Below, one piece after another: positions 3,888-59,104 of a stretch of 64,000 bases of DNA. The notes beneath the pieces are model-generated. The model was not told the origin of the DNA and did not search any database. It worked only from the letters and a program-made list of their open reading frames with translations. The stretch spans positions 744,001 through 808,000 of the forward strand of contig CAJSYZ010000007.1 of assembly GCA_910574455.1 (NCBI GenBank). The letters are read 5' to 3'. The DNA is from Trichaptum fuscoviolaceum. Its lineage: Eukaryota > Basidiomycota > Agaricomycetes > Hymenochaetales > Trichaptaceae. Both the position numbers and the translations under genes were made by a program. Each line of letters begins with the position of its first letter. Positions within the stretch are counted from its first letter, which is position 1.

Positions 3888-4717
3888 TGTTACGACCGTC
3901 GGGAATTGTAGCGGGAAACAGTTTCGGGAAACTGGAATTCGCGACAAGAACCCGCGTTCGGGAATCTGGATTCGCGACTGGGAACGAGCGTGGGAATTCA
4001 GGCGGGAAACGCGCGGGATTCTATCCAGGCGCGTCGCGGGATTCTCAAGGCCAGCTAGGACTCTTCACTGCTTTGAACGTCAAGTAAGCGGATCCCTAAG
4101 GAAGCACTCCACAAGTAAGTATTGCGCAAATAACTACACAGGAGAAAAGAGAGAGATTGCACCTAAGGAAGCACTCCACAAGAGGTCAAAAGTGGGGTGC
4201 TCCTTACGATGCCTACAGCTATTTATCTACTTCGTAAAGACTGTATAGTTAATCTACGCTAAGTGTCCTTGCGCAATGCGCACCTATCTACTACAAACGA
4301 TACATGCTACGACCGCACTGCTAGGCATGTCTATCCCGTCTCTCCAGATGGCTACGGCCTGTCCGTGGACGTCAGCGTCCGGTCCGGGGCCGCGACTAGC
4401 CAGACTAGGTATGCCAGACTGTTGCAGGTCGTCACCTTGAGGTACTAACGGATTAATGAGCGTATGTTGATAAGTGAATGTACGTGTGCCGTGGCGGGTC
4501 GTCGTAAATGAATGTGTGTATGCGTGCATGGTGGTCGGGACGGTGGTGCGGGATAGGTCACGTGAGCGGGGGATCTTGCGGGGGATCGTGCGAGTCGGGA
4601 AAGGGGTTTCGCGCGGGGAATCCAATGGCGGGATTCTCCCCGCGGGATTGTCTGCTCATGTCGGGATCCTTGGCGGGAAAGTGCGGGAAATGAGAAAAGG
4701 GGCCTGGGATCTCGACA
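3888..4717 (-). repeat. Gypsy-1 3' LTR
   Basis: 830 bp, TG...CA. On the minus strand it holds the TATA-like box, the ACTTTTGACCT motif (plus-strand 4183-4193) and many GGGAATC-type words. The pol reading frame runs about 160 bases into it. Confidence 0.92.
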
Positions 4718-4734
4718 TTACCCCCCTCCAAAGG
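4718..4734 (-). other. Gypsy-1 polypurine tract
   Basis: On the minus strand the sequence CCTTTGGAGGGGGGTAA abuts the 3' LTR. This is the expected second-strand primer site. The same tract is present at 15938 in Gypsy-2 and at 62389 in the third Gypsy-1 copy. Confidence 0.85.
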
Positions 4735-6927
4735 CGCAACTCCGGGGCGCCAAGCTTGAATCTTGCTCAGGTCACAGAGCTCGATAGCGTTGACTTCTCG
4801 AGGGGCGTCCGGGTGTTTTCGATAGAAACTGCGAATTTTAGCCTTTGCATTACCCATATCCTTTGCGGGAATCCATGTATCTTCCGCGCTCGAATATCCC
4901 TTCCATCGTACCAAATATTCAAACCTCCGTCTAAACCGTCTAGCGTCCAGTACCTCTTCCACCTCGTATTCCAGATCTCCTTCTACTTCGACTGGGGGCG
5001 GCGGGGGTTGCGTTCGACCGGGAATGTCGTCTTCGTGGTATGGCGAGAGCAGCGACACGTGAAATACGGGATGAATCTTCAGCGACGCGGGGAGTTCGAG
5101 TTCGTAGGTGAGGTCACTTAGCTTTGCCTTCACTTTATACGGCCCTAGTCGTTTCGGTAATAATTTGCGCGCTCCCGGTCGCCGAACGTTCGTCGCCTCG
5201 AGCCATACTTTATCCCCGACTGCGTACTGCGGGGCCTCGTTCCTGGCCTGATCGTAGTGCTGCTTCATGCGCTCTGCCGCAACCTCCAAAGCCGCTCTTG
5301 CCTCTTCCTGTGCCTGCTGAAGCTCCTGTAGTCGTGCGTCCGCGGCGGGGACCGTGGACAGGCCGTCGCTCGGGGCAATCGTGAATTCGGGATTGTAGCC
5401 GTAGACGAGCGCGAACGGGGATTGTCGTGTTGCCGCGTGCGCTTTCGTGTTGTGCGCGAATTCTGCCATCGGGAGTAATCCGGCCCAGTTTTCTTGTCGT
5501 GTATCTATGAAAGCCCGTAAATATTGTTCCAGCTCTTGGTTTACCCTTTCGGTTTGCCCATCCGTCTGCGGGTGATATGCAGTCGACGTGGTACCCTTGA
5601 TACCGAGTCGGGAAAAAAGGGCTTTCATGAATTGCGCGACAAACTGTGGTCCTCGGTCGGATATGATCTGGCGGGGGGTTCCGTGCAGCTTCCAGACGTG
5701 TTGCAGGAAGAGTTCTGCAGTTTCTGGTGCATCGACATCAGACGTGGTCGGGATAAAATGCGCTTGCTTGGTGAGACGGTCGACCACCACGAAAATTGCG
5801 TCGTAATCCTCAGATCGGGGGAGCTGGGTGATGAAATCGCACGAAATCGCCTGCCAGGGGCCCTGCGGGATTTCGTTCGGTTGCAGGAGTCCTACCGGGC
5901 GTTGGGATCGGTTCTTCGTGCGTGCGCAGGTATCGCATCCCGAAACGTATCGTTCTACGAAGTTAGACATCCCGGGCCACCAGTAGTTGCGGCTTACCAT
6001 CTCAAACGTTTTCCAACGTCCAGGATGTCCGGCGGGGAGACTGTCGTGGTAAGTCTTCACCACATCCCGGCGAATGGTCTCGTCTTTCGGGACGTAAACC
6101 TTACCCTGGTACAGGATGAGGCCTTCCTCGGTGCTCCAGTCCTCAAGTTCCTTGGTCAGGACTCGAGGCGCTTTGGACTTGACCAGCTCGATCGCGTCCA
6201 CCAGTTCGTCTTCATATTGATCTGACTTACGAATGCGTCGTAGGAGGGCCTGATCCCCGTGTACCTGCGTCATTCCCCGACGAATTGCCTTTAGTCAAAA
6301 CATTTCGGGGGTCAAGAGGGTCCGTCCCGTGTTGTCTTCGCCTTCGGGTTGAAGATCGACGCGTCGTGACATGGCGTCGGGTTTGCCCCCGAGTCGCCCT
6401 GGGCGATGGCGAATCGTAAAATCGAAGCGGGTGAGGAACAGACTCCACCGGGCTTGGCGTCGCGTCAGCGTTCGGGATTCAGAGAAATATAGCAGATTCT
6501 TGTGGTCAGACACAATATCGAGTTTATGACTCGCACCTTCGAGATAATGTCGCCACTCGTCAAGAGCTCGAATAATCGCGAGTAGCTCCTTGTCATAAAT
6601 CTCGTAGTTGCGTTCCGCATCGTTGAGGGATTTCGAGAAAAAGGCGACCGGATGTATCAGCCCGTCGTCGCCTTCCTGGGACAAGACCGCGCCAGTCGCG
6701 AAATCAGAGGCGTCGCATTCCACGATGAATTGTTGCGACATGTCTGGCATCATCAGGACGGGGGCGGTCGTGAACATGCGCTTGAGATAGTCGAAAGCGA
6801 ACTGCTGGTTTTCTGTCCAGGCCCAGCGAACGTCCTTCTTCAGCAGCGTCGTGAGCGGTTTGACGATGTGCGAGAAATCCCGAATGAAGCGTCGATAGAA
6901 ATTCGCGAACCCGAGGAAGGCTTGAAT

Positions 6928-8509
6928 TAGAGCATGACACGGGTGCACCTGCAGGTGTACCCGGATCCGCGAAGCGCAGGTACCTGCGCAAAAAAACTGA
7001 TACCTGGATCCGACCCGGAACCGTGGGAAACGGATCCGGGTCTACCTGGACCCGTTACCTGCAGGTATTGCAGGTACCTGATAGGACCTGCAGGTAATAA
7101 TAGTAAGTAATGTAATAACAAGATAAAATAAACAATACAACATACCATCTGTGTTTCTGAGGAGTCCTGCATGGTCTGGGCCGCGTCATCCACTAAGGCA
7201 AGGTGACCCCGAAGGCAGGGAAGTTGATTTCTTCAAGCTGCGGAAGGGACGAGAGCGCGTTGCTGAGCACGGGCTCGAGGACGGAGATGCCAACATTCGC
7301 GCTGAGGTCTGATTGGTGAACTCGGGACACAGCTTGTAGCCCTTCTATGAAATCGCGCAATCCGCTGGTCGCCATGTCTGGAGGACGATGAGCTGTAGCT
7401 TCTTGAGATGGCTATGCATGAACAGCCTTGCAAAGGCGAATGCACATCATCAACCACAACCTTAACAAGACGATCGAGGTTCGGAAGCAGTGTGAGTCGA
7501 GGACGCATTGCCGAGAGAAGAAGGAAACGCACCGTGTCCCGCTCGCCATCCTCCAAAGGCCCTAGCAATTGCAGTAGAGTCAAGACATTCGATATGTTCC
7601 TCCATAACTTGTTGTTTGCACCCTTCTCCCACGAACGACATACGCAAGCTGCTCTTGCTATGCTTTTCGTCAATTAGTTCTCCAGTACTATAGTCAAGAT
7701 GTCTGGTAGCTGTAGAGCGCGGTGCATGGCGTGAAGACGTGTGCGAAGGTGCGCGGTCCACTGCGAAGGCGAAAGACTTGCAGGCGGTTTCTGCGCGCAG
7801 ACGCGTCGCAAACTTGGCGAGGAGGCGGTCATCGGGCTCGAGGTCGTTATCGCAGTTGGCAAGGCCTAGGGGATCAAGTATAATAGGGGGTTACGACGGT
7901 GGAAGTTGGCTGACGACGCGTACCGCTTGTGGCACGGCTTCATGAGTCCAGACGACGGTGGGTGTTGCGGTTGCCGGACGAGCAGCAGCATGTCGAGGGC
8001 GACAAGCGGCTGTGGTCTCGCGGTCTCGCGAAGAGAGCGCGGCGGGCGGGAGGACGCTGACAAGCGCGCAGTTGGTGAGGAGGCGGTCATGGCGCACGTT
8101 GTCGTCGTAGTAGGCGGCTGTCCGAGCGCAGATGCGTCGCAGACCAGCGCGCAGTTGGCGCGGAGGCGGTCATCGGGCTCGAGGTTGTCGTTGTAGTCAG
8201 CGGGGCCAAAGGATTAAGTATAACTTCCATAGGGAGCTTCGAGAGAGCTCAGGAGTGGCCATGTCGAGTAGAATGTAGGTGAAAGTAATGGTACATCGTT
8301 GCGTTCGTCGCACTCAAGATGAGTGCACGTGATTTACCGGGTACTTGCAGGTACCCGGCCAGGTACCTGGGCAAAAAAAAATCCAAACCTGGATCCGCAG
8401 GTAAGCGTGGGAACCAGGTACCTGCACACAGGTGCACCTGGAACCGCAGGTATTTGAGTGCAGGTACCTGCAGGTACCCACGGGTGACCTGCACCCGTGT
8501 CATGCTCTA
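6928..8509. mobile_element. Non-autonomous hAT element, copy 1 (1582 bp)
   Basis: Terminal inverted repeats begin TAGAGCATGACACGGG. An 8-bp target duplication GCTTGAAT (6920-6927, 8510-8517) lies in Gypsy-1 pol, and the uninterrupted frame is seen in Gypsy-2. Eight-base duplications and this TIR type point to the hAT superfamily. Both ends (about 170-200 bp) are packed with CAGGTACCTG and CTGCAGGT words, likely transposase-binding subterminal repeats. There is no transposase. The interior carries pieces of F-box genes: an F-box/LRR 5' fragment at 7193-7680 and DDRLLANCALV-type scraps at about 7870-8200. Confidence 0.88.
7193..7680 (-). pseudogene. F-box/LRR gene fragment carried by hAT copy 1
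   Basis: On the minus strand the text reads like the start of a fungal F-box/LRR protein: ARAACVCRSWEKGANNKLWR and NVLTLLQLLGPLE, then in a shifted frame LRDFIEGLQAVSRVHQ and LSSLPQLEEINFP. The first part fits an F-box helix region and the second a leucine-rich repeat edge. A frame change near 7390-7400 and loss of the rest show it is a captured fragment. This is a different F-box gene from the one represented at 2546-3240 and in hAT copies 2 and 3. Confidence 0.55.
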
Positions 8510-10079
8510 GCTTGAATGTCTTTCACCTTTTTCGGGGTAGGCCAGTCGAGGACCGCCTGTACCTTGGCGGGATCCATCGCCACCTTTCCCTGCGAAATAA
8601 TCATCCCGAGATACTCGACGGAAGTCTGTTTGAATTTGCACTTTTCGGGTTTACAGAACAAGTCGTTTTCGCGCAGCCGCTTAAGGACTTCCCGTACGTG
8701 TTCCTCGTGCTGCAATTCATCTTCGGAAAAGATTAGCAAGTCGTCAAGATAGATGATCACGTATACTCCAATGAGATCTTTGAAGATATCGTTCATCATA
8801 TGCTGGAAGGTCGCCGGGGCATTCGTGAGCCCGAATGTCATCACCGTTGGTTCGAAATGTCCTGCCTGAGTCCGAAATGCGGCCTTCCACTCGTCGCCTT
8901 GCTTTAGTCGCACGTTGTGGTAGCCCCATCGCAAATCTAACGTCGTGAAAACCTTCGCCTTTTGCAGTGCGTCTACGAGTTCCATCGTGAGGGGAAGCGG
9001 GTATCGATTCTTGACCGTGATATCGTTCAGTCGTCGGTAATCGACTACCATGCGCAAGGTTCCGTCCTTTTTCTTGATAAAGAAGACGGGAGCCGCTGCA
9101 GGGGATTTCGAAGGTCGTATGTACCCTTTGCGCAGGTTTTCGTCAACGAATTCGCGAAGGGCGTCGCGTTCGGCCGGGGCCAACGGATAGATTGTGCTGT
9201 ACGGGGGAACTTTCCCGGGTTCTAGATCTATGGCGTGATCATACGGCTTGCGTAGTGGAAGCCTTTCGGATTCAACTTTCGAGAAAACGTCGGCAAACTC
9301 ACGAAATTCGGGGGGAACTAGTTCCTCGAAGGTTTTCTCGCCTTCCTTCACTGCTGACTTCTCAGCGATGGCCTGGGAGTGGGTGTACGAGGCGGCAATT
9401 TTGTACGCGAAGTGGTTGTCCGTCGTGACGAAGTAGGATTCAGCGTCGTGGTACTGGTCCCAATATTTTTCTGAGTACCGAAATCCTGGTGGGACAGCTT
9501 CCCATTCGGCCTGGGTCCTGTCGGGCCCCCAGGGGGTCTCGACTTCTTCTGCTATGGCGAGGCGGGGAAGCGGGACCAGGCGTTGCTGGTTGTCACACTG
9601 GGGCGGGCAGCGGTTGAGATCGACCACGTCGTTGGTCCAGTCAATGGTCGGGTTATGGTGCCGCAACCAGTCGATCCCCATGATAATATCGTCGTCGCCA
9701 ATATCCGCGACGGCCATGGTCAACTGTTCTAAGTGTCCCTTCATCTCGACGTTGAGGACTACTTCCTTGGTGATGCGTCCAATCGCGTTCGGGGAATTGT
9801 CCGCGTTGCGCAAAAGTATCGGGATTACCAAGTCCTGGGTCTGGAGTCCGTGTCGCGAAACGTAGCGGGAATTTATGAAAGTTCCCGACGCACCGCTGTC
9901 TAACATTACTGTGGCTAAGGCATCCGTTTTTCCGTCGCTAACCTGTACCGGGAACTTCAAATGTCGTCTAAGACGACGGTCTATTGTAGAGATGGTTAAA
10001 TACAAGGGACCATTATTAAGAGAGTTCTTCGGCCACAAGGGCGGTTGGGTCGTATAGGGCGCGACTGAGCAATACGACC

Positions 10080-11287
10080 CTACTGAAAATCCGCTGGGGG
10101 CGGGGCTTCGGGATTGTGAACGTTCTTGGCGGCGGGCGTCATGGCGGCGAATGCGTTCTGTAGCACGGACTGCTGCACATTCTGGACGTACTGTTCCGCC
10201 ATACGTTTGAGCGTTTCTTCGAACGACTGGAGCGCGGGGGGCGAGGGGCTCGACGGGGACGTGGATTTCGTAGCCTTTAGGTTTCGGGTTGGCGGTCGCG
10301 TTGGGCAATCGCTCACTAAATGGTCTTTCTCTCCGCAGTAGTAGCATAGTCCCTTACTCCTGCGCTCCCGGCACACCCTGTCAATCTCCATTGCGTTGGG
10401 ATCCTTCGTCGAGCTTGCGCCCGCAGTCGGGATCGTACGCGGAACTGAGCTAGTGGTGCCGGGATTGCTTCGGGGCGTAGCCGCTGGCTTTGATACTGGT
10501 CCATAGGCGTGTGCGAGCCTTAGCTTCTCGTCCGTCTCGGAAACCCAATTGACGTAGGCATCGAATTTCATATCCTTCGCCTCTGTGCTGGCGATGTGCT
10601 GGCGAACCTGGTCTTTGAGTCCCTTCCGGAACATGTCGAGGTAGATGACGTCCGTCGTTGCGTCCTTGGGCCACCCGGTGAGGGCTTGGAGGGCACGGAA
10701 TTGCGACGCAAACTCGGCGACCGTTCCTGTCTGGCGTAGTCGCATCAGCTTGTCGGCTGCGGCTTTGTCTGCATCGATTTCTCCGTAAGAGGCGCGAAGG
10801 GCGGTGAACAGGGCCTCCAGGCTGGCGGCTTCTGGCGGTGTCGGGATGTCCTGGAGTCGATCTAGAATAGGTCGTGCCCAGTCTTGCGCCGGCCCCCGCA
10901 GTAGCATCAGAGCGAATGCGACCTTGCGGGTTTCGTCTAGTCCCGGATGTTGTCCGAACAGGTGAGCTTAATCTGGTGAATCCAGTTCTCCAGCTTGGCT
11001 CGTTCGCCTTCGAAGGTGTCGGGAAGCTTCATCTTGAGCCCTGCTCCGCCCCCAGACGGGGAGGCGGGCTGGCTCGCGATTTGGGCTTCTAACGCCTGGT
11101 TGGCGTGCTTGAGCTGGGCGACTGTGTTCTGAACCTGATTGTGTTCGTTGACTAGCTTGGAGTAGCGTTTTTCGAGGGTGTCGAGGCGATCAAGGATGGG
11201 CTGGAGTTTGTCTTCCTCCATCGAGGAGCTCGGGGACGGGAAAGCGAAGGTATCTGCGAGTCCTCCCCATTCCTGGTGGGACGACAT
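10080..11287 (-). pseudogene. Gypsy-1 gag, frameshifted
   Basis: Starts at 11287 (MSSHQEWGGLADTF), with a coiled-coil-like stretch (LDTLEKRYSKLVNEHNQVQN). A one-base frame break near 10960-10970 follows: the first frame stops at 10937, while the homologous frame continues as GQHPGLDETRKVAFAL into LRGPAQDW. The C-terminal part has a CCHC zinc knuckle (CYYCGEKDHLVSDC, about 10300-10345) that binds element RNA in this family. It ends PPPADFQ at 10080. The last codons (GGATTTTCAG then TAG) allow a -1 slip on the T run into pol. The frameshift makes this copy defective. Confidence 0.85.
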
Positions 11288-11363: not shown

Positions 11364-11374
11364 ACTTTTGACCT
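11364..11374 (-). promoter_or_regulatory. Gypsy-1 primer-binding site, complementary to its own LTR
   Basis: Two bases inside the 5' LTR, the sense strand reads AGGTCAAAAGT. Its exact 11-base complement ACTTTTGACCT lies in the same LTR (sense strand, plus-strand coordinates 11672-11682), about 33 bases downstream of an ATAAATAG box. This is the arrangement of Tf1/sushi self-priming elements. Confidence 0.75.
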
Positions 11375-11376
11375 AA

Positions 11377-12206
11377 TGTTACGACCGTCGGGAATTGTAG
11401 CGGGAAACAGTTTCGGGAAACTGGAATTCGCGACAAGAACCCGCGTTCGGGAATCTGGATTCGCGACTGGGAACGAGCGTGGGAATTCAGGCGGGAAACG
11501 CGCGGGATTCTATCCAGGCGCGTCGCGGGATTCTCAAGGCCAGCTAGGACTCTTCACTGCTTTGAACGTCAAGTAAGCGGATCCCTAAGGAAGCACTCCA
11601 CAAGTAAGTATTGCGCAACTAACTACACAGGAGAAAAGAGAGAGATCGCACCTAAGGAAGCACTCCACAAGAGGTCAAAAGTGGGGTGCTCCTTACGATG
11701 CCTACAGCTATTTATCTACTTCGTAAAGACTGTATAGTTAATCTACGCTAAGTGTCCTTGCGCAATGCGCACCTATCTACTACAAACGATACATGCTACG
11801 ACCGCACTGCTAGGCATGTCTATCCCGTCTCTCCAGATGGCTACGGCCTGTCCGTGGACGTCAGCGTCCGGTCCGGGGCCGCGACTAGCCAGACTAGGTA
11901 TGCCAGACTGTTGCAGGTCGTCACCTTGAGGTACTAACGGATTAATGAGCGTATGTTGATAAGTGAATGTACGTGTGCCGTGGCGGGTCGTCGTAAATGA
12001 ATGTGTGTATGCGTGCATGGTGGTCGGGACGGTGGTGCGGGATAGGTCACGTGAGCGGGGGATCTTGCGGGGGATCGTGCGAGTCGGGAAAGGGGTTTCG
12101 CGCGGGGAATCCAATGGCGGGATTCTCCCCGCGGGATTGTCTGCTCATGTCGGGATCCTTGGCGGGAAAGTGCGGGAAATGAGAAAAGGGGCCTGGGATC
12201 TCGACA
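11377..12206 (-). repeat. Gypsy-1 5' LTR (promoter LTR)
   Basis: 830 bp. On the minus strand a TATA-like ATAAATAG lies at plus-strand 11708-11715 and the candidate transcript start/primer motif at 11672-11682. The motif sits in a hairpin-like context (GCACyCCAC ... GTGGAGTGC). GGGAAT-type words recur throughout. Confidence 0.9.
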
Positions 12207-12811: not shown

Positions 12812-14380
12812 TAGAGCATGACACGGGTGCAGGTCATCCGTGGGTACCTGCAGGTACCTGCGCTCAAATACCTGCGGTTCCAGGTGCACCTGTGCGCAGG
12901 TACCTGGTTCCCACGGTTACCTGCAGATCCAGGTTTGGATTTTTTGGGCCCAGGTACCTGCAGGTACCCGGTCAATCACGTGCGCTCACCTTGAGCGCGA
13001 CGAACGCAACGATGTACCACTACTTTCACCTACATTCTACTCGATATGTACCATTTTTTTCGTCATCCTCGAAGCCGCCTACTACAACGACAACATGCGC
13101 GATGACCGCCTCCTCGCCAACTGTGCGCTTGTCAGCGCCCGCCCGTCGCGCTCTCTGCGCGAGACCGCGAGACCGCAGCCGCTTGTCGCCCTCGACATGC
13201 TGCTCGTCCAGCAACCACAACACCCACCGTCATCGGCACTCATGATGCCGCGCTAAAAGCGGTACACGGCGTCAGCCAACTTCCACCGTTGTAACCTCCC
13301 CGTTGTAACCTCCCCGCCAACTGCGCGTTTGTCTGCCAGGCGAGGTCGGCTTCAACACAGAGGCTGCTTTTCCGTCGCGCTTCTCTCCATTCAGAGATTG
13401 CCTACAAGTCCTTCGCCCGCGTGGTCGACCGCAAGACAGAACACGACCGTGATGATTCCGTTGCACGCTTGCGCATTACACTCGATTACAACCATCCAGA
13501 TCAGGTCTCCCACCACTCCTTCGCTCGCCGTCGTATGTCCCAACCTCTATGAGCTCGACATCTTGCTGTATGGCCGCGGTGTGCCTATGCAACAGACGGA
13601 GGGTGCCGTTGACGCAGCGCGCATGTGCAAGACAGTCCCAGCAACCACTCTCGAAGCACCCTATGGAAGTTAAGTCTCAAAGCCGCCTACCATGATGACG
13701 GCCCCGTCGCGCCCAATGGCCGCCTCCTCGCCAACTGCGCGCAGACAACCGCAAAACAGAATGGGACCGCGGCGAAGATCAAGCTAGAATCTCGTAATGC
13801 AGAGGCTGAACTGGTCTTCTGGTACGTCTTTTTTCTTCTTTTTTCTTACCTTCATCGTACTAATCTCGCCATTGATCCCGCTCGTCGCCTTCGACATGCC
13901 GCTCGTCCAGCATCCGCAACACCCATCCTCGCCTATGGTCATGATGCAGCCCCACAAGCGGTGCGCATCGTCGGCCAACTTCCACCGTCGCAAGCCCTCG
14001 GTGCTCACCGCCGTCGTCCAGTTCCACCGCCTCCTCGCCCTCTTCAAGCCCATTCAGATTCGACCAAGCCTGAATCCTCTGGCGGCGAGGCAGTCGTCTC
14101 CCCGCCAGCCCTTTCGACTGGTCGTGGTCCATGCAAGGCTGTCCACCTCCAGGACATATGGTATGTTATTCATTATGTTTTTATCTTATTACTACACTAC
14201 TTACTGTTAACTACCTGCGGGTTGTATCAGGTACCTGCAATACCTGCAGGTAACGGGTCCAGGTAGACCCGGATCCGTTTCCCACGGTTCCGGGTCGGAT
14301 CCAGGTATCAGTTTTTTTGCGCAGGTACCTGCGCTTCGCGGATCCGGGTACACCTGCAGGTGCACCCGTGTCATGCTCTA
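12812..14380. mobile_element. Non-autonomous hAT element, copy 2 (1569 bp, inverted)
   Basis: Same TIRs as copy 1 but in reverse orientation. An 8-bp target duplication TGCCCTAG (12804-12811, 14381-14388) lies in the giant LTR, and the empty site is visible at 56465-56472. The subterminal CAGGTACCTG arrays are conserved at both ends. The interior carries host-derived F-box-like fragments on the plus strand and no transposase. Confidence 0.88.
13090..14150 (+). pseudogene. F-box-like family fragments carried by hAT copy 2
   Basis: Blocks of the DDRLLANCALVSA family appear out of register: RDDRLLANCALVSA at about 13100, then SEIAYKSFARVVDRKTEHDR, a shifted ITLDYNHPDQVSHHSFA, and ELDILLYGRGVP with QTEGAVDAARM at about 13380-13680. 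A second scrambled piece follows to about 14150. The order matches fragment 1 at 2546-2975, so the parent gene is the same family. Stops and frame changes rule out function. Confidence 0.5.
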
Positions 14381-15357: not shown

Positions 15358-15937
15358 TGTTACGACACAGAGTGGATCTACGCGTTCTCAGGACCTCGGA
15401 CAATGTAAATCGGACGATCAGCGGCTATGCGAAGCGGTTCCACACTCTGGGAAGCACTTGACAAGTCAATTAAGCTATTCTACACATCAGAAGCACAAAT
15501 ATAACGTCACCTGGGAAGCACTTGACAAGAGGCCAAAAGTGGAGTGCTTCTCAGGCGGACGGGCGCTTTTGGCAAGCGCAGGAAGAACTATACAGTTCCT
15601 CCAAGCCACCGTCCGTACGGACCCGTGGTCCGATCCGAATTTGAAATACAAATAGAAAGATGAATAAGCATCGCTGGCGCGCCGGGTTTGAACCCAAGCG
15701 CACCAAAAGGTGTCCGTTAGTGAATAGAATGAAAAGAAACAATAATCCCGTGTGCAGACAGATGCAAAGGTGTACGCGCCGTACGGGCTTCGTACCGAGT
15801 GCGTACCGCTGACCGTACGAGACCGTACGAGTGTCTCGTACGATGTCAGGAATCGAAAGTAAATAAAAACATCAGTAAATCATAAGTAAACGGAAAACAA
15901 AAGAAAACAATAAGTAAATCCGTGGCGATTCCTGACA
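15358..15937 (-). repeat. Gypsy-2 3' LTR
   Basis: 580 bp, TG...CA. Indistinguishable from the 5' LTR on reading. The AGGCCAAAAGT/ACTTTTGGCCT motif is at 15530-15540. A dense cluster of CGTACG/GTACGAG words lies at about 15765-15845. Confidence 0.93.
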
Positions 15938-15994: not shown

Positions 15995-18900
15995 TCACCG
16001 TACCGCCAATGGGTATTTGCGATGGAAAGCACGAATTCGAGCTTGTGCGTGTTCCATATTAGCCGCGTCGAGCCAGGTATCTTCGTCCGACTGGTAACCC
16101 TTCCATCGAACCAAATACTGAAGTTTCTGCGTACGGCCCGTACGACGCGAGTTCAGTATCTCCTGAACTTCGTACTCAATGTCCCCATTGATTGGTACGG
16201 GCTCGGGAGGGGTCTGTACACGTCCGGGGATTGTGTCCGACTGGTACTTGGTCAGGAGCGAGACATGGAAGACTGGGTGCACCTTCATCGAAGCTGGAAG
16301 TTTCAGCTCATAGTTTAGCGGACTTAGCTTTCGTACGACCTCGTACGGACCGAGTCGACGATGATTGAGCTTCCTGGCACCTGGCAAGGCTATATTGCGA
16401 GCCTCGAGCCAGACACGATCACCTGGTTCGATGTCCGGTACGTCCGTACGGTGCTGGTCGTAGTAGCGCTTCATACGATCCGCAGCAACTTCCAACGCGG
16501 CCTGGGCATCGTCCTGAGCCTTCTTCAGCATGTCTATACGGTCATCAGCTGCTGGTACGGTCGAAAGACCCGTACTCGGTACGATGGCGAACCCGGGCTC
16601 GTACCCGTACAACAGCGCGAACGGCGAGGTCCGAGTGGCTGAATGCGCACGAGTGTTGTGCGCAAACTCGGCCATAGGCAGCAGCCGAGCCCAGTTCTCC
16701 TGCCGAACATCTGTGAAGGCTCGAAGATACTGTTCGAGCTCCTGATTTACTCGTTCGGTCTGACCGTCAGTCTGAGGGTGGAAAGAAGTCGAAGTAGCAC
16801 CTTTAATACCAAGACGCTTGAAGAACTCCTTCATAAAGCGTGATACAAACTGTGGCCCGCGGTCCGAGATGATTTTTCGAGGCGTACCATGGTGTTTCCA
16901 AACCTCGGACACGAACAGTTCGGCCGTACGAGTCGAGTCAACGTCGGACGTCGTTGGTACGAAGTGCGCCTGCTTGGTGAGCCGGTCAACCACCACAAAG
17001 ATCGCGTCGAAACCCTCAGACGGTGGCAGCTGCGTGATAAAGTCGCAGGAGATGGTCTGCCATGGTCCGGACGGTACCTCGTTCGGTTCGAGCGGTCCGA
17101 CCGGTCGCTGGGGAATATTCTTGGTGCGCATACAGGTATCGCACCCGGACACGTACCGCTCGACAAAAGAAGACATCCCTGGCCACCAATAGTTGCGACT
17201 CACCAGCTCGTACGTCTTCCACCGTCCGGGGTGTCCCACCGGCAGAGAATCATGATGTAATTTCACAATATCTCGCCGAATTTCCTCGTCCTTCGGTACG
17301 TAGACCTTCCCTCGGTACAGCAGCAGTCCATCCTCCGTGTTCCAGTCCTCCAACTCCTTCTTCAAGGACACAGGGGCCTTCCCCTTCAGAGCCTCGATCG
17401 CCTCTACCAATTCCTCATCCCAACTCTTCGAACTCCGGATCCTTCGCAACAACGCCGTGTCCCCCTCGAGCCGTACCATGCCTCGACGCATCGCGTGCAG
17501 GCGAAACAAGTCTCTGTCCAACAGAGTCCGGTTCGTGTTGTCCGGACCATTTGGTTCGAGGTCGGTACGACGTGACATCGCGTCTGGCTTGCCCCCAAGC
17601 CGGCCAGGGCGATGTCGGATCGTGAAGTCGAACCGACTGAGAAAAATACTCCAGCGAGCTTGTCTGCGAGTGAGATTGCGAGCTTCAGAGAAGTAGAGCA
17701 GGTTCTTGTGGTCCGAGACAACGTCGATCTTGTGTGGAGACCCTTCGAGATAATGTCTCCACTCGTCGAGCGACCGTACGATAGCCAGTAGCTCCTTATC
17801 ATAGATCTCATAGTTTCGCTCCGCATCATTTAGCAATTTCGAGTAGAAAGCCACCGGATGAATCGTACCGTCCGTACCGACCTGCGACAGTACTGCACCT
17901 GTCGCAAAGTCAGAAGCGTCACACTCAAGAATAAATGGTTTCTCGAGGTCAGGCATGGCCAGCACCGGTGCTTGAGTGAATCGACGCTTCAACTCGTCGA
18001 ACGAGGCTTGTTGTCTCGTACCCCACTCGAACCGGACGTCCTTTCGAAGCAGTTCGGTCATAGGCCGTACGATCCGGGAGTAATCCTCGATAAACCGGCG
18101 ATAGAAGTTCGCAAAACCAAGGAAGGCTTGAATATCCTTGACCTTTGCAGGTGTAGGCCACTCCAGAACCGCCTTGACCTTGGCCGGGTCCATCGAAACC
18201 GTACCGGCTCCGATAACCATGCCTAGGTATTCCACAGAAGACTGGTGGAACTTACACTTCTCTGGCTTGACAAACAGGTCGTGCTTCTCGAGCCGTTCGA
18301 GTACGGTACGAACGTGCTCGACATGATCTTCCTCATTCTCAGAGAAAATCAGCAAATCGTCTAAATAGATGATTACAATCACCCCATTCAGATCTTTGAA
18401 GATGTCGTTCATCATGTGCTGGAACGTCGCCGGAGCATTGGTGAGTCCGAAGGTCATCACTGTCGGTTCGAAGTGGCCTTCCTGCGTACGAAAGGCCGCT
18501 TTCCACTCGTCTCCTTCCTTCATCCGTACGTTGTGGTACCCGGATCGAAGGTCTAAGGTCGTAAACACCTTCGCTTTCTTCAAGGCATCGACTAGCTCAG
18601 TGGTGAGAGGCAGTGGGTACCTGTTCTTCACAGTCATCGCATTGAGCTTGCGATAATCTACCACCATGCGCAGCGAACCGTCCTTCTTCTTGATAAAGAA
18701 GACCGGAGCCGCAGCCGGAGACTTGGAGGGTCGAATGTACCCCTTCCTCAAGTTCTCCTCGATGAATTCCTTCAGCGCCGTACGCTCGTTCGGCGCCATG
18801 GGGTAGATCTTGCTGTAAGAAGGTACCGCACCCGGTACGAGGTCGATCGCATGGTCGTACGGTTTACGGGTGGGGAGGCGTTCTGCCCGGTCCTTCGAGA

Positions 18901-19726
18901 AGACTTTGGCGAAATCGCGGTACTGCGGCGGTACGAGTTCTTCGAACGACTTCTCGCCTTCCTTCACTGCAGTCTTCTCAGCAATTGCCTGAGACCAGGT
19001 GTACGAAGCGGCGATCCGCTGTGCGAAATCCGGGTCATCCGTGACAAAGAATTCCTCAGAATCGTGATAAACATCCCAATACTTCTCAGAATACCGGAAG
19101 CCTGGCGGAACTTTGTCTCGTTCGCTGACCGGTTCGTCCGTACCACCCGAGTCGTACGGTTCGTCCTCGAGCTCAGCTACCGTCACTCGAGTTCGAGGAG
19201 GTGGCTGAGGCTTCGCGCGGCGTGCGCGGTTCGAGGTCTCCGTACGAGCCGTGCGCACTGCGTCTGACTCCGGGGGACCTTCCATCTGAAACTCCGTACG
19301 GTCCGTACGAGGCTGACAGGCCTTCGCACAGCGCATAAAAGTCATCTGGTCGTTTGCCCAGTCGATCTCTGGGTTGTGGAGTCGCAGCCAGTCGACCCCA
19401 ATAATCAGGGGATAGTCCCCAATGTCCGCCACCACTGCAGTCACGTTCTCAGTGTGCGATCCGACTGTTAAACTAATCGGCACTTCATCTGTGAGCCAGC
19501 CCACATTGTTCAAGGAGTTGTCTGCGTTGTACAACCGCGTACGAGGGACCAAAGGTCTCGTACGGAGCCCGAACCGTTCGACAACCGTACGGTTAATAAA
19601 TATCGATGAGGCCCCACTGTCTAAGAAGGCTCTCATCCTTAAGATCTTTCTGCCATCGCTGACTCTCACAGGAAAACGAATGAACCGGCGCAACTTCTTG
19701 TCTATTGACTGTATACTAGTAGACAT
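15995..19726 (-). CDS. Gypsy-2 pol polyprotein (PR-RT-RNaseH-IN-chromodomain)
   Basis: 1243 codons from the first ATG at 19726; the same frame is open upstream into gag, so the natural product is probably a gag-pol fusion. Domains in order: aspartic protease (LDSGASSIF, ~residue 33), reverse transcriptase with the YLDD box (YLDDLLIFS, ~450), RNase H (DASDFATGAVL, ~600), integrase zinc finger (HHDSLPVGHPGR ... CDTCMRTK, ~845-870), and the integrase core with Asp residues in SCDFITQLP and ISDRGPQF (~955) and a Glu in NQELEQYLR. A chromodomain with YLVRWKGYQSDEDTW lies near the C-terminus (~1190-1225). All expected catalytic motifs are present. It copies element RNA into DNA and inserts it, with the chromodomain expected to bias insertion to marked chromatin. 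There are no internal stops, and the frame ends 58 bases before the 3' LTR. Confidence 0.95.
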   Translation of the reverse strand: MSTSIQSIDKKLRRFIRFPVRVSDGRKILRMRAFLDSGASSIFINRTVVERFGLRTRPLVPRTRLYNADNSLNNVGWLTDEVPISLTVGSHTENVTAVVADIGDYPLIIGVDWLRLHNPEIDWANDQMTFMRCAKACQPRTDRTEFQMEGPPESDAVRTARTETSNRARRAKPQPPPRTRVTVAELEDEPYDSGGTDEPVSERDKVPPGFRYSEKYWDVYHDSEEFFVTDDPDFAQRIAASYTWSQAIAEKTAVKEGEKSFEELVPPQYRDFAKVFSKDRAERLPTRKPYDHAIDLVPGAVPSYSKIYPMAPNERTALKEFIEENLRKGYIRPSKSPAAAPVFFIKKKDGSLRMVVDYRKLNAMTVKNRYPLPLTTELVDALKKAKVFTTLDLRSGYHNVRMKEGDEWKAAFRTQEGHFEPTVMTFGLTNAPATFQHMMNDIFKDLNGVIVIIYLDDLLIFSENEEDHVEHVRTVLERLEKHDLFVKPEKCKFHQSSVEYLGMVIGAGTVSMDPAKVKAVLEWPTPAKVKDIQAFLGFANFYRRFIEDYSRIVRPMTELLRKDVRFEWGTRQQASFDELKRRFTQAPVLAMPDLEKPFILECDASDFATGAVLSQVGTDGTIHPVAFYSKLLNDAERNYEIYDKELLAIVRSLDEWRHYLEGSPHKIDVVSDHKNLLYFSEARNLTRRQARWSIFLSRFDFTIRHRPGRLGGKPDAMSRRTDLEPNGPDNTNRTLLDRDLFRLHAMRRGMVRLEGDTALLRRIRSSKSWDEELVEAIEALKGKAPVSLKKELEDWNTEDGLLLYRGKVYVPKDEEIRRDIVKLHHDSLPVGHPGRWKTYELVSRNYWWPGMSSFVERYVSGCDTCMRTKNIPQRPVGPLEPNEVPSGPWQTISCDFITQLPPSEGFDAIFVVVDRLTKQAHFVPTTSDVDSTRTAELFVSEVWKHHGTPRKIISDRGPQFVSRFMKEFFKRLGIKGATSTSFHPQTDGQTERVNQELEQYLRAFTDVRQENWARLLPMAEFAHNTRAHSATRTSPFALLYGYEPGFAIVPSTGLSTVPAADDRIDMLKKAQDDAQAALEVAADRMKRYYDQHRTDVPDIEPGDRVWLEARNIALPGARKLNHRRLGPYEVVRKLSPLNYELKLPASMKVHPVFHVSLLTKYQSDTIPGRVQTPPEPVPINGDIEYEVQEILNSRRTGRTQKLQYLVRWKGYQSDEDTWLDAANMEHAQARIRAFHRKYPLAVR

Positions 19727-19803: not shown

Positions 19804-19816
19804 CTAGTTGAAACCC
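19804..19816 (-). promoter_or_regulatory. Candidate -1 ribosomal frameshift site, gag to pol
   Basis: In the gag frame the codons are TCG GGT TTC AAC TAG. The heptamer G GGT TTC (plus-strand 19810-19816) has the canonical X XXY YYZ form and ends 3 bases before the stop. A -1 slip enters the open pol frame. Whether a downstream stem or pseudoknot exists was not computed. Confidence 0.6.
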
Positions 19817-21003
19817 GATTCCTTCGAGAGGTGCGCCATAAGGACTTTGGCAGCATCAGAAACAGAGATTGGGTGTTCGGTCGTACCGCTCGGTACGAGG
19901 GGGGTCTCGTCCGAGACGTCAGCGATCGAAGCAGTGGGAGCTGGGGCCGGTACCTGGGGTGTCGAGGCCGTACTGATGTTCGTACGGTTCGAGGTATTAG
20001 ACGCGTGGCGCTTGGGGCACTTGGCGGACATATGACCTTTCTCGCCACAGTGGAAGCATAACCCCTTGCGCAGCGCCTCTTCCCTACTGATCTGGTCCAC
20101 CTCCATCGCGTTCGGGTCACGGTGGCTCGAGCCGGTACGAGGCTGGTTCGAGTTCGACATCTGACGCGTCTGGAAAGCAGTTCCAGTGCGCTGAGGGATG
20201 GGGTTGGTACGAGTTGTGGCACGGATGGCTCGCAGCTCATCATCGTAGACACAACAGGCCTTCACATACCCATCAAAGTCCTCAGGCATCTTCTTGAGCG
20301 TCAGGTCCGTACGAAAACGGTTCGAAAGTCCGTACCGGAACCAAGCAATCCATGGTTTATCGTCAGCAACCCACTTGGTCTTGACCTTGAGGGCCCTGTA
20401 GCGAGCAGCATACTCAGCCACGGTTCCAGTCTGCCTGAGAGCCATAATTTCGTTCTCAGCAGCAGCAACAGCATCAGCTTCACCATATCCAGCAGCCAGA
20501 GACTCCAAGAAAGTGTCCAACTTGTCGAAAATGGCGACCGGCTCGCCCTTGTGGATCGAGTCCATGTAGGGACGCACCCACTCGTCTGCAGGGCCTCGAA
20601 GGTAAGTCGCAGCGAACTGGCACTTCGTACGCTCGTCCGGGAACTCGTGCGGGCGCATAGAGATGTAGTTCCGTACCTGACCGGACCAAGCTTCGTACGA
20701 AAGCTTGTCCTTGTCCGCGGCATCGCCCTTGGGGCCGTAAAACAAGCCTGGGGGTGGAATCTTCGGACCCTTCGTACCGCGCGGTTCGGCGACGCGCGTT
20801 TCGAGCGCTCCCTTCAAGTATGCATTCTGCTGAAGCAACTGATCGATCTGCTCCCTCCAGGGGGCCATATACTGGTTCAGCATAGCTTGAGTCGCCTCAT
20901 CCATAGTTGGGGGTTGTGGGGGTACGGGTGCCTGCACGGGTGCGACGGGGGGCGCTCCAGGAGGGCCTCCGGGCGCAGGAACAGGCGGTGTAGCGTTCTG
21001 CAT
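19804..21003 (-). CDS. Gypsy-2 gag capsid protein
   Basis: 399 aa from ATG 21003 to TAG at 19804. A Pro-rich N-terminus is followed by a capsid-like region with LRGPADEWVRPYMDS, the conserved core of Ty3/Gypsy gag in fungi. A CCHC zinc knuckle (CFHCGEKGHMSAKC) lies at about residues 313-326, then a low-complexity tail. It forms the cytoplasmic particle in which reverse transcription takes place. The reading frame is intact. The gag stop is preceded by a -1 slippery heptamer, linking it to pol. The start codon lies about 96 bases inside the 5' LTR boundary. Confidence 0.92.
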   Translation of the reverse strand: MQNATPPVPAPGGPPGAPPVAPVQAPVPPQPPTMDEATQAMLNQYMAPWREQIDQLLQQNAYLKGALETRVAEPRGTKGPKIPPPGLFYGPKGDAADKDKLSYEAWSGQVRNYISMRPHEFPDERTKCQFAATYLRGPADEWVRPYMDSIHKGEPVAIFDKLDTFLESLAAGYGEADAVAAAENEIMALRQTGTVAEYAARYRALKVKTKWVADDKPWIAWFRYGLSNRFRTDLTLKKMPEDFDGYVKACCVYDDELRAIRATTRTNPIPQRTGTAFQTRQMSNSNQPRTGSSHRDPNAMEVDQISREEALRKGLCFHCGEKGHMSAKCPKRHASNTSNRTNISTASTPQVPAPAPTASIADVSDETPLVPSGTTEHPISVSDAAKVLMAHLSKESGFN

Positions 21004-21086: not shown

Positions 21087-21097
21087 ACTTTTGGCCT
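21087..21097 (-). promoter_or_regulatory. Gypsy-2 primer-binding site, complementary to its own LTR
   Basis: The sense strand reads AGGCCAAAAGT two bases inside the 5' LTR. The exact complement ACTTTTGGCCT lies in the LTR at 21272-21282. Relative to Gypsy-1 both partners changed together (T:A to C:G), a compensatory change. Confidence 0.75.
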
Positions 21098-21099
21098 AA

Positions 21100-21679
21100 T
21101 GTTACGACACAGAGTGGATCTACGCGTTCTCAGGACCTCGGACAATGTAAATCGGACGATCAGCGGCTATGCGAAGCGGTTCCACACTCTGGGAAGCACT
21201 TGACAAGTCAATTAAGCTATTCTACACATCAGAAGCACAAATATAACGTCACCTGGGAAGCACTTGACAAGAGGCCAAAAGTGGAGTGCTTCTCAGGCGG
21301 ACGGGCGCTTTTGGCAAGCGCAGGAAGAACTATACAGTTCCTCCAAGCCACCGTCCGTACGGACCCGTGGTCCGATCCGAATTTGAAATACAAATAGAAA
21401 GATGAATAAGCATCGCTGGCGCGCCGGGTTTGAACCCAAGCGCACCAAAAGGTGTCCGTTAGTGAATAGAATGAAAAGAAACAATAATCCCGTGTGCAGA
21501 CAGATGCAAAGGTGTACGCGCCGTACGGGCTTCGTACCGAGTGCGTACCGCTGACCGTACGAGACCGTACGAGTGTCTCGTACGATGTCAGGAATCGAAA
21601 GTAAATAAAAACATCAGTAAATCATAAGTAAACGGAAAACAAAAGAAAACAATAAGTAAATCCGTGGCGATTCCTGACA
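21100..21679 (-). repeat. Gypsy-2 5' LTR
   Basis: 580 bp. A TATAG-containing box (minus strand, near 21328-21337) lies about 50 bases upstream of the ACTTTTGGCCT motif. The motif stands between AAGCACT and AGTGCTT, able to form a hairpin. Confidence 0.92.
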
Positions 21680-23581
21680 GTGCGCCAGCTTGATACCTCG
21701 CGCACAATTACATTCCTTTAGTTCTCTTTGTTTCACTTGACCATGCTTCACGCTCGTTCCCTTAGATCTTGCCCAGATGTTCCCGCACCGAATCCCGAAT
21801 CCCGGATTCACATCACTGTATGCGCGGCCTTCGCCCGCAAGATTGTGTAACTAGTTAGTTGCGCGTTTGTGCATGCCCGTTCCCTGTAGATTCTGCCCAG
21901 TAGATAAATACCTGTCGCCACCGTAAGGAGCACTCACTTTTGTCCTCTTGTCGAGTGCTTCCTTAGGTGTGTTTCTGTCTTGTCTCTAGTGTAGTTTTAC
22001 AATGCTGACTTGTCGAGTGCTTCCTTAGGGAACCTCCTCCTGATAACAGAAGTGTTGCCTTGAGATCCCGGTTATCCTGAGCTCTCTGCTCCTGTCCTGA
22101 GCACGCCTGCTCTCTGGCTCTCTTGTCTCTGTCTTGTCCCGGATCCCGCTCTGCGAATCCCGCTCTGAGTCCTGCCCAGAATCCCGCTCTGAGATTCCCG
22201 CCAGAATCCCGCTCTGCAATTCCCGCCAAAGTCCCGAACGATTCCCGCTCTGCAATCCCTGCACGAATCCAGATTCCCGCGCGAATCCAGATTCCCGCCA
22301 GAATCCCGCTTGGCATTTCCCCGCGTCTCGACTCTGTCTCCCCGCGCCTCGACTCTGCCTTCCCCGCCTCGACTCTGACTCCGTCCCGTCCTCGCCTTGA
22401 GCCCCCTTGCGTCTCGCCCCCGTAGCCCCGCTCCCCGCGCGACTCCGTTGGCGTTGTAGCGTCCTTAACGGTTCCCCTTTGCCTTCTCCGCTGCCGCGCG
22501 CTCTCCCAGGCCTTGCTCCGGAAGCCGCTAACGCGCCCCGGCCCCCAGGTTCCCCCCAGGTCGTAACACTTACAGCTGAAGACACTTCTTTGTCGTCTGC
22601 CGTATCTTCTTCAAACCGCTGCCTCTTCTTCAGCAAGACATCTGCCGAGTTGTTCATTAAGGTACGCCAACTTCCAGTCCCTTGCAGCTCCTTTGTATCC
22701 CCAAGCCAAACATGGTCGTCACCATCCATGATACCTCCCTCTTCATCTGAGGAAACTGTAGCTGATGATGCATTTTGATTGTCTTCCTTAGGTCTTAGCC
22801 ATGGGTGTTGATATAAGGGCTGTGTCCTACGTCGATGGACAAAGCGGAAGAATGCCGATGGAGGTGGCTGACAAGCCTGGACAAGGTGTTTGCATAAATG
22901 GAAGCAGTTGTACTTCTGTTGTCCACAGCGGCAAACCCAAGCTTTTACATCTGTGTGGTAGTTTGTGCTACTAACAGGACGATCTGATAGCACCTTCCAA
23001 GCTCGTTTGAAATCTTGCTGGTGCTTTGTCAATGTTTTTGCACGACCTAAGGCATGGTTATCCTCAAGCACCTGTCCACGATGAAGATAGGCAGGTAAGA
23101 CCTTCGTGAGAATGATGTATACAAGCTGATCCAATCGTGGGCGTAGCAGGTGGTGGAGATAATCATGTTTCAGTTGACGCCAATGATTCTCCACGCTCAT
23201 GGTTGTTCGTAACCGAGAGATATGCTCTGATGTTGAACGTGCCCAGAGTTTCCACTTCTTTGCTGAGTACCATTGTGTCCACATATATCCCCAAACTTCA
23301 CGGAGTCCACGTTGATGACAAAAGTTGTACATCTCCCAGACTGACTCCCTGCGTATATCTTCTCCAGACATAAAGCCAAAGTCTTCTTCTGGAAACACAG
23401 GATGCATGCAAAAATGCTTCGAAAATATGCGAAGCAGTTGGTGTCGATGTGGTGCTGGACAGAAGACATATTCTGAGTCTGAAGAGCGTGTCTCTTGTTC
23501 CTCAAACTCCCAGTCTGGTGCGTCCTCCTGGTCCGTATCATTCTGATGCTTTCTGATCCAACCCTCTAACTGGGTAGAAAC

Positions 23582-55850: not shown

Positions 55851-58369
55851 TGTCGGGATCCCCCAGGACCCCAACATGTCTAAGGCAATCCCGAACAGAA
55901 CCCGGTATACTGAAACCCGAATCGCGACCGTGGCTAGATCCCCGAAAGGATCCCCCGCTCTCTGATCCCGGAAGAACCTCTGCTTCGCCATGCATTCTCC
56001 TGCTAAGAGTTCCGCCCCGCTACGACCTCCTCGCCCCTGCTTGTCCTCGCCCACGTCTCCTCGTCAGTCCCCCGCCTCGTCCCCGTGTCTCGATCCATCC
56101 CTAGCCCGCCTCGTCGTTCCCCCGCTCGCTCCCCGCTCCCGTCATGCTCTGTTCCCTGCCCCAGCGAACCCCGTACCTCGCCATAGTCCCGAAGTCACTC
56201 ACCATAGCCACAGCCATAGCCATAGCCTGCCACAGCCATAGCCATAGCCATAGCTATCCCAGACCTCGTAGGTTCTCGACTATGCCCGGATACCAGATCC
56301 CGGCCTCGCGTCCACAGTCATGAAGTGCAGTTAGGAGATTAATCCACTGCGTCCAAAGCCGACCTCTGTCTGGCCTTGAGTAAGCCAACACGACAGCGGT
56401 CAAGGATCGCTGTCCCGCAATCCTGCCCGGTCACGAACCCTGCCCTGCGCTCGTCCTGCCACGGTGCCCTAGCTAACCCCTTCGACATCCTGTGCCTCTC
56501 GACCTGCCCTTGTTCGTCCACAGCCTGCCCCACCAGGAATCCCGCCTCGCCGCGAACGCTGTCAAGCGTCCTCTCTGACAATCCCGCAACCCACGCTCGT
56601 TCCCGGTTGGAGTCCCGTCAAGACTCCCCCACTCGTCCAGGTTGGAGTCCCGCCAAACTCCCCCCGCTCGTTCCCCGACCAGAGTCTCGCCAGACTCCCC
56701 CGCTCATTCCCGGTAGAAACCCCGCTCGCTTCCCGGTTGGAATCCCGCTCCTTTCCCCCGCACGATCCCAGTCGAAAACCCGCTCGTTTCCCGCCTCACG
56801 TCCCATCTCGAATCCCTGCGCAAATCCCCCGCAGGATTCCCGTCTTCGATCCCGCCGCGATTCCCATCGCAACCCCCAGCTAAGTCCCCGCTCTGATTCC
56901 CGAAAGATTCCCGCTACGATTCCCGGTCGAACCCTGTCTCGATTCCCGCTCGAAACCCGAACTCGAAACCCGGTCGAAACCCGAACTCGATTCCCGGTTG
57001 AAACCCGAACCAGATTCCCTGCATGATCTAGTCGCGAATCTCGCTGGTTTCCCGTCGTCCAAAGGAAACCCCTTAGCTTCCCCGCTCCTCGATGCTAACC
57101 TCGTCTTGAGATAGCCCCAGGTGATTGGCCTGGCCACGCACGTGCCAGCCAACTAGTCTCGTTAGTAGCGTCCTGCCCCGGCCCGCAGACCACATTCCCG
57201 CCACCCCGTGTGCGGGATTGATCTCATTGTCCGCAAGGACTCGAACCCCGTCCTTAGTCGCCCTGCCCCGCGCGCGCCTCGCGATTAGGCTTCGTTACGA
57301 CATCGAAGCACCGGCTTCTTCGAAGTTGGTCCCTGTCGATCTCCCGCGACCCTGATCCACGCCAGAAGTTGTCTGCAACTTATCCCGAGACGATGTATGC
57401 ATTACATCCGCCCCCCACGCTCGTTACCCCGCTGCCTGTGCGCCAGCTTGATACCTCGCGCACAATTACATTCCTTTAGTTCTCTTTGTTTCACTTGACC
57501 ATGCTTCACGCTCGTTCCCTTAGATCTTGCCCAGATGTCCCCCGCACCGAATCCCGAATCCCGGATTCACGTCACTGTATGCGCGGCCTTCGCCCGCAAG
57601 ATTGTGTAACTAGTTAGTTGCGCGTTTGTGCATGCCCGTTCCCTGTAGATTCTGCCCAGTAGATAAATACCTGTCGCCACCGTAAGGAGCACTCACTTTT
57701 GTCCTCTTGTCGAGTGCTTCCTTAGGTGTGTTTCTGTCTTGTCTCTAGTGTAGTTTTACAATGCTAACTTGTCGAGTGCTTCCTTAGGGAACCTCCTCCT
57801 GATACAGAAGTGTTGCCTTGAGATCCCGGTTATCCTGAGCTCTCTGCTCCTGTCCTGAGCACGCCTGCTCTCTGGCTCTCTTGTCTCTGTCTTGCCCCGG
57901 ATCCCGCTCTGCGAATCCCGCCCTGAGTCCTGCCCAGAATCCCGCTCTGAGATTCCCGCCAGAATCCCGCTCTGAGATTCCCGCCAGAATCCCGCTTTGA
58001 GATTCCCGCCAAAGTCCCGAACGATTCCCGCTCTGCGATCCCCGCACGAATCCAGATTCCCGCACGAATCCAGATTCCCGCGCGAATCCAGATTCCCGCC
58101 AGAATCCCGCTTGGCATTTCCCCGCGTCTCGACTCTGTTCCCCCGCGCCTCGACTCTGCCTTCCCCGCCTCGACTCTGACTCCGTCCCGTCCTCGCCTTG
58201 AGCCCCCTAGCGTCTCGCCCCCGTAGCCCCGCTCCCCGCGCGACTCCGTTGGCGTTGTAGCATCCTTAACGGTTCCCCTTCGCCTTCTCCGCTGCCGCGC
58301 GCTCTCCCAGGCCTTGCCCCGGAAGCCGCTAACGCGCCCCGGCCCCCAGGTTCCCCCCAGGTCGTAACA
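55851..58369 (+). mobile_element. Giant (2519 bp) solo LTR, copy B, uninterrupted
   Basis: TGTCGGGATC...GTCGTAACA, flanked by the 5-bp duplication AGGCC (55846-55850, 58370-58374). It carries the empty sites of Gypsy-1 (AATCC), hAT copy 2 (TGCCCTAG) and Gypsy-2 (GTGCG), confirming those insertions in copy A. A TATA-like box and the ACTTTTGTCCT motif (57695-57705) are conserved. No coding frame of known family is present. Confidence 0.9.
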
Positions 58370-58785: not shown

Positions 58786-59104
58786 TGTTACGACCGTCGG
58801 GAATTGTAGCGGGAAACAGTTTTGGGAAACTGGAATTCGCGACAAGAACCCGCGTTCGGGAATCTGGATTCGCGACTGGGAACGAGCGTGGGAATTCAGG
58901 CGGGAAACGCGCGGGATTCTATCCAGGCGCGTCGCGGGATTCTCAAGGCCAGCTAGGACTCTTCACTGCTTTTGAACGTCAGGTAAGCGGATCCCTAAGG
59001 AAGCACTCCACAAGTAAGTATTGCGCAACTAACTACACAGGAGAAAAGAGAGAGATCGCACCTAAGGAAGCACTCCACAAGAGGTCAAAAGTGGGGTGCT
59101 CCTT

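Follow-up and report, generated by a model that had tools for sequence, protein, structure and literature searches.

Matched primer and primer-binding sites point to self-priming in chromodomain retrotransposons of Trichaptum fuscoviolaceum

How do the LTR retrotransposons in this 64,000-nucleotide stretch of the Trichaptum fuscoviolaceum genome (the window) prime their reverse transcription? Two of them, Gypsy-1 and Gypsy-2, are chromodomain Ty3/gypsy elements on the minus strand, and an earlier note had proposed that each uses the first 11 nt of its own RNA as the primer.

The window elements and their 11-nt pairs

The LTR pair of Gypsy-1 (5′ LTR, 11377..12206; 3′ LTR, 3888..4717; both minus strand) is 830 bp long with TG...CA ends, and has two differences (99.76% in the self-alignment) and the TSD AATCC. 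Its gag-pol region (4558..10907, minus strand) comprises several ORFs and is broken at about 6928-8509 relative to other copies. The Gypsy-2 LTRs (5′ LTR, 21100..21679; 3′ LTR, 15358..15937; both minus strand) are 580 bp long and identical, with 0 differences and the TSD GTGCG. They enclose a gag ORF (19804..21003, minus strand; Retrotrans_gag and zf-CCHC) and a pol ORF of 1243 amino acids (15995..19726, minus strand), whose best PDB match is Ty3 Gag-Pol 7q5b. Pfam identified gag, protease, RT, RNase H, integrase, SH3_Tf2-1 and chromodomain in both elements, in the chromovirus order gag-PR-RT-RNaseH-IN with the chromodomain at the C-terminus, and in both a GGAGGGGGGTAA tract precedes the 3′ LTR.

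Other repeats surround these elements. An insertion of ~1.5 kb is repeated at 6928-8509, 12812-14380 and 23582-25059, breaking Gypsy-1 pol and one of the giant LTRs described below. Two Gypsy-1-like LTR pieces (58786-59104 and 61882-62520) are split by an inverted repeat (59309-61671; 97-99%, with a 114-nt spacer), and a primer motif lies in this interrupted LTR at 59082..59092 (minus strand). Between 35194 and 55643, a segment of 6.7-6.9 kb is present in three tandem copies that are 79-81% identical in the main alignments.

The primer-binding site (PBS) of Gypsy-1, AGGTCAAAAGT (11364..11374, minus strand), lies 2 nt internal to the 5′ LTR, and its exact complement ACTTTTGACCT, the putative self-primer and predicted RNA nt 1-11, lies within the LTR at 11672..11682 (minus strand). 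Gypsy-2 has the PBS AGGCCAAAAGT at 21087..21097, again 2 nt internal to the 5′ LTR, and the putative self-primer ACTTTTGGCCT at 21272..21282 (both minus strand). These sequences and that of the giant LTRs were all found where the earlier note had placed them, and the exact 11-nt complementarity it had claimed for the two elements was confirmed. The complement is present in both LTRs of each element, the 3′ LTR copies being at 4193-4183 and 15540-15530. The window holds nine copies of ACTTTTGNCCT, where 0.10 would be expected. Three LTR sequences (Gypsy-1, Gypsy-2 and 411 nt of the LTR of a further family, L125, described below) were each dinucleotide-shuffled 5000 times, and the exact complement was recovered in 0/5000 for each.

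We compared five LTR types: Gypsy-1, Gypsy-2, a relative of Gypsy-2 (pol about 73% identical), giant and L125. The pairing is exactly 11 bp long in all five, the length that the earlier note had given for the window elements. Nucleotide 12 is mismatched in 5/5 types, C against T. At the other end, the C that precedes the motif in every type does not pair with the C or T that follows the PBS. A TATA-like box in Gypsy-1, ATAAATAG (11708..11715, minus strand), starts 33 nt upstream of the primer motif, and ATAAATA stands 32 nt upstream in the giant LTR (measured in the genomic locus L022, with the box present at both window copies), in agreement with the distances noted earlier. The Gypsy-2 LTR contains neither ATAAATA nor TATAAA, with TATAGT at -52 (locus L031) or -53 (L010), and its relative is likewise without a TATA box at the expected distance. 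From the TATA spacing, which holds in three of the five LTR types only (Gypsy-1, giant and L125), we infer a transcript start at the motif.

Matched changes across the genome

The searched genome comprised 59 Mb in 12 contigs, within which ACTTTTGNCCTCTTGT matched 982 sites (reversed control, 0) and GTAACANNAGGNNNAAAGT matched 371 (control, 1). Among the 100 listed of the 371 matches, the three unconstrained PBS positions read NCA in every case, where N is T, C or A, and the exact 11-nt complement lies upstream in all of the first 30 of the 371 loci (19 with T, 9 with C and 2 with A). The base that differs between Gypsy-1 and Gypsy-2 was said to have changed in both partners, and this pattern extends through the genome. 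In searches of these two types that varied the middle base only, with the family spacing fixed and the other bases intact, a motif with A was paired with a PBS carrying T at 198 sites and A, C or G at none (Gypsy-1 type), and a motif with G was paired with a PBS carrying C at 119 sites and A, G or T at none (Gypsy-2 type). Independent change of the two sites was not seen in these searches (0 mismatched against 198 + 119 matched), to which L125 adds a wholly different pair. Copies inside one family share descent and these counts are not independent events; since only 1/11 positions varies among the three window types, the window covariation represents at least two double changes (between Gypsy-1, Gypsy-2 with its relative, and the giant type), not hundreds.

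The giant LTRs carry the primer motif ACTTTTGTCCT twice in the window on the plus strand, at 21936..21946, in an LTR whose similarity to the other giant LTR stops at 22568, and at 57695..57705, in an LTR that ends at 58369 with no PBS after it. The earlier note had predicted that the missing internal part would carry the PBS AGGACAAAAGT. This site exists: at all 12 such sites (AGGAC) among the 100 matches listed, the giant motif lies 645-747 nt upstream on the same strand. The motif has 173 genome copies, many of those listed being about 4.0 kb apart, and the elements comprise a predicted LTR of about 2.5 kb and an internal part of about 1.5 kb. As an aside, some giant elements stand in rows at ~4.0 kb as if sharing LTRs (e.g. 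C2:1928584, 1932586 and 1936601).

Directly after the giant PBS runs a stop-free frame of 427 codons in L022 (L022:1511-2791) and 418 codons in L017. A Pfam scan of the L022 frame found zinc knuckles and no protease, RT or integrase. The resemblance of the giant frame to Gypsy-1 Gag lies mainly around the knuckles, and only in that part is a resemblance to Gypsy-2 Gag clear; the L022 and L017 frames differ by 13 synonymous and 10 non-synonymous changes in 394 codons, which is weak evidence on coding constraint. With their single zinc-knuckle ORF, the giant-LTR elements look non-autonomous; as the frame holds no retroviral enzyme, they should rely on helpers, yet keep their own primer/PBS pair. 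Non-autonomous LTR elements with a gag-like ORF are a known kind, and the giant elements likewise have LTRs, a PBS and one long zinc-knuckle frame; they differ in an LTR that is longer than the internal part and in a primer/PBS pair distinct from those of their likely helpers. Such a pair in elements with no RT seen speaks for a primer choice made in cis by the RNA, with the enzymes supplied in trans.

Further families were drawn from an integrase-core search, with 150 of 581 candidates scored. Pfam places L125 among the chromoviruses, its chromodomain being borderline (25.0 bits against a cut-off of 25.1). Its pair came from a scan of six loci for complements at least 10 nt long, and consists of GACTCAAATAT in the LTR and ATATTTGAGTC as the PBS, in wholly different letters. 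The LTR ends in CTGACA, followed by GT and then the PBS, which is therefore 2 nt after the LTR end, and the motif lies 314 nt upstream of the PBS and 34 nt after TATAAA. The genome holds 19 sites of the LTR motif (searched as an 18-mer) and eight of the PBS. The exact motif lies about 310 nt upstream of 7/8 of these, and no exact LTR-motif site was found near the eighth, at C3:488900. Four motif pairs are 9.28 kb apart with a PBS after the first member only, which places the motif in both LTRs. The remaining matches of the scan are 10-12-mers without LTR context, including a 12-mer within L125, and a complement alone is for that reason no proof; the case for self-priming is carried by position, TATA spacing and the copy pattern of LTR and PBS.

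Could shared ancestry alone account for the matched pairs, with Gypsy-1, Gypsy-2 and the giant type descending from one ancestor whose middle base drifted and was matched by recombination or template switching? The single varying position and the common descent of copies within families suit this account, and a primer copied into the PBS during replication could homogenise the pair. Such homogenisation would, however, itself be a product of self-priming, and L125 has a different matched pair in an LTR with no detected similarity to the other types. We regard the chance that ancestry alone suffices as close to negligible.

The six-locus scan gave no complement of 10 or more in L127 and L128. 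These two and L122, L123 and L124 belong to further chromovirus families, in which gag and pol lie within long open frames, and no LTR pair was found within the L122, L123/L124 and L127/L128 loci, a 4-kb extension of L127 being unmatched to L127. By eye, a frame upstream of gag in these families resembles an integrase zinc-finger stretch. L125 itself has an antisense, open-looking stretch (by eye) between pol and the 3′ LTR (L125:7020-8001). In viral contigs, GTAACANNAGGNCAAAAGT matched 13 stretches, with the complement in 0/13 of the stretches examined, and we took these matches as chance; no relative of Gypsy-2 pol was confirmed in those contigs.

Candidate primers and known self-priming elements

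Priming by a tRNA is the rule, and these elements too could take their primer from a host tRNA or another host RNA, the LTR motif then being a chance or unrelated complement. Scoring 63 of 2254 candidates gave a list of at least 61 tRNA genes; 40 of these were read, and 40/40 were called as tRNA. The comparison set was these 40 of the 61 listed, without His, Trp and Tyr, in mature form with predicted introns cut. Against it the best matches for four primers were 7-9/11, a result in keeping with the earlier proposal, and the PBSs showed no good fit to any 3′ end or internal arm of the 40 tRNAs, the complementarity that marks tRNA-primed elements. The top match (9/11) was between the giant PBS and the acceptor arm of tRNA-Leu(CAG), 4 nt short of the CCA end. 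As a control, the copia complement GGCTCATAACC of the same genome matched tRNA-Met(CAT), which we take to be the initiator, at 11/11, and two copia-like elements carry a tRNA-Met-type site. The PBSs of our elements have no TGG start, and even the best match leaves two mismatches and an unpaired CCA end. Moreover, one external RNA fails to explain three PBS letters each matched by its own LTR, or the unrelated L125 pair. Weighing these points with the 40-of-61 coverage and the tRNA-Leu(CAG) match, we consider host-RNA priming exceedingly unlikely.

Two side results belong here. Of the copia loci, L126 and L129 were identified by RVT_2, whereas L130 counts as copia solely by its short LTR and a similar PBS. 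Among the 40 tRNAs, no long match was found for a TGGCGCC stretch in L127.

We therefore favour, with a probability of roughly 0.9, the reading in which the window elements and their kin, as chromodomain Ty3/gypsy retrotransposons, use their own RNA to prime reverse transcription, by a mechanism modelled on Tf1. The observations behind it are the exact 11-nt complementarity, its position, the matched family changes, the different L125 pair and the poor fit to 40 tRNAs; the self-priming interpretation of the earlier note is likewise supported by the successful giant PBS prediction. By analogy with Tf1, the first base of ACTTTTGNCCT would be the transcription start, lying about 32-34 nt beyond the TATA-like box where one is present, and RNA nt 1-11 would pair with the PBS, 2 nt downstream of the 5′ LTR. 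The RNase H of the element would then cut between nt 11 and 12, and the freed 3′ end would serve as the primer for minus-strand strong-stop DNA.

Tf1 is an established self-priming element, and the same mode has been proposed for many Tf1/sushi elements (PMC7175516, PMC10085805, PMC6317226 and PMC4600332). Self-priming is as such already known in Tf1/sushi chromoviruses, and the present elements would be a further instance of it. In Tf1 and Tf2 of Schizosaccharomyces pombe, the first 11 RNA bases complement the PBS and the cut falls between 11 and 12 (PMC7175516). The same 11-nt complementarity is found here, and the window elements have SH3_Tf2-1 and a chromodomain at the integrase C-terminus; the letters differ, and our pairs are known from sequence, with the RNase H cut and RNA start predicted. 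Two features used to recognise Tf1/sushi priming are present: the PBS is complementary to an LTR segment near the putative transcript start and not to a tRNA, and the primer is 11 nt long in 5/5 LTR types. The SH3_Tf2-1 domain is only a hint of placement within the Tf1/sushi group.

Self-priming was likewise predicted from sequence for Tj1, Tosmo1-3 and Tcry1 of other fission yeasts (PMC4600332 and PMC10085805). Those elements have different hosts, and 'pretzel' folds are reported for them; the pretzel of Tf1 is a three-duplex leader fold (PMC10085805), whereas the folds here are equivocal. Self-priming has also been proposed for Tcn1 of Cryptococcus (PMC7175516) and is predicted for most Tcn1 elements of mosses and club-mosses (PMC6317226), while for SM-Tcn1 neither tRNA priming nor self-priming was evident (PMC2864245). 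The likeness of the Cryptococcus and plant Tcn1-clade elements to ours lies in the predicted priming mode. Within one genome, the self-priming signature is found in four related LTR types and one unrelated family. The natural matched changes resemble ready-made compensatory mutants, and these sites would escape PBS finders restricted to tRNA matches.

The stem around the primer, leader folds and a direct repeat

The segment from -20 to +38 around the primer forms a stem-loop with the primer in its loop. It lies at 11645..11702 in Gypsy-1 (minus strand; MFE -27.0, z -4.97) and 21245..21302 in Gypsy-2 (minus strand; MFE -24.4, z -4.11), with z-scores of -3.84 in the Gypsy-2 relative, -5.51 and -5.22 in the giant type and -3.61 in the interrupted LTR; the L125 stem is weak (z -1.83). 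In a comparison of stem pairs across LTR types, the Gypsy-1/giant and Gypsy-2 groups carry different bases on both sides of the outer pairs with pairing mostly kept, and the stem of each group has mismatches or a bulge; the paired change is one contrast between two groups.

If the RNA starts at the primer, the upstream arm of this stem is missing from the RNA 5′ end and present in the 3′ LTR. A speculative proposal, which we hold to be rather unlikely, is that the strong stem, astride the putative U3/R border and kept with paired changes in the four motif-sharing LTR types, locks away the 3′-LTR copy of the primer, so that the 5′-terminal copy alone would be available to the PBS. It would be a device that fixes the right end, also in a non-autonomous family borrowing its enzymes, and offers a concrete idea of how a self-priming RNA avoids the wrong end. 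The stem may act in DNA instead. A literature search mostly without subscription papers found no report of a stem looping out the 3′-LTR primer copy, or of matched pairs in helper-dependent elements.

The stem also bears on whether something other than priming explains the match of the two sites, as an inverted protein-binding motif or as a contact between the RNA 5′ end and the leader in packaging or circularisation. The flanking stem and a direct repeat nearby are also kept in step between LTR types, as this account would allow. A protein site should, however, hold the same letters, and here the letters change while the pairing stays, with L125 sharing no motif; the site also occupies the position required of a PBS, and these elements showed no recognisable PBS of the tRNA type. 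We judge a non-priming match very unlikely, and retain self-priming as the preferred reading.

Free RNA folding was considered as proof of priming and set aside as equivocal across the five LTR types. The minimum-energy fold of the free leader retains the primer:PBS helix in Gypsy-2; in L125 the helix forms with 40 nt of downstream sequence and is gone with 60. In Gypsy-1, the Gypsy-2 relative and the giant type it is absent from the free fold and costs 6.6-7.1 kcal/mol. When the helix is forced, Gypsy-1, Gypsy-2 and its relative gain an extra 3-bp UGU:ACA helix beside the PBS, which the giant type does not.

Finally, a direct repeat of 19-20 nt (CTTGT..AGTGCTTC...AG) occurs right after the primer and again further on. 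In Gypsy-1 it reads CTTGTGGAGTGCTTCCTTAG, with its first copy at 11671-11652 and its second at 11585..11604 (minus strand), bounding a 67-nt GT...AG stretch; the other window copies are at 21189-21207 and 21253-21271 (Gypsy-2) and at 21947-21966 and 22009-22028 (giant). The copies change in step across four LTR types and bound GT...AG stretches of 62-67 nt. Viewed as a possible intron, by eye and against the fungal splice consensus, the stretch seems to have a good donor and branch only in the giant LTR.
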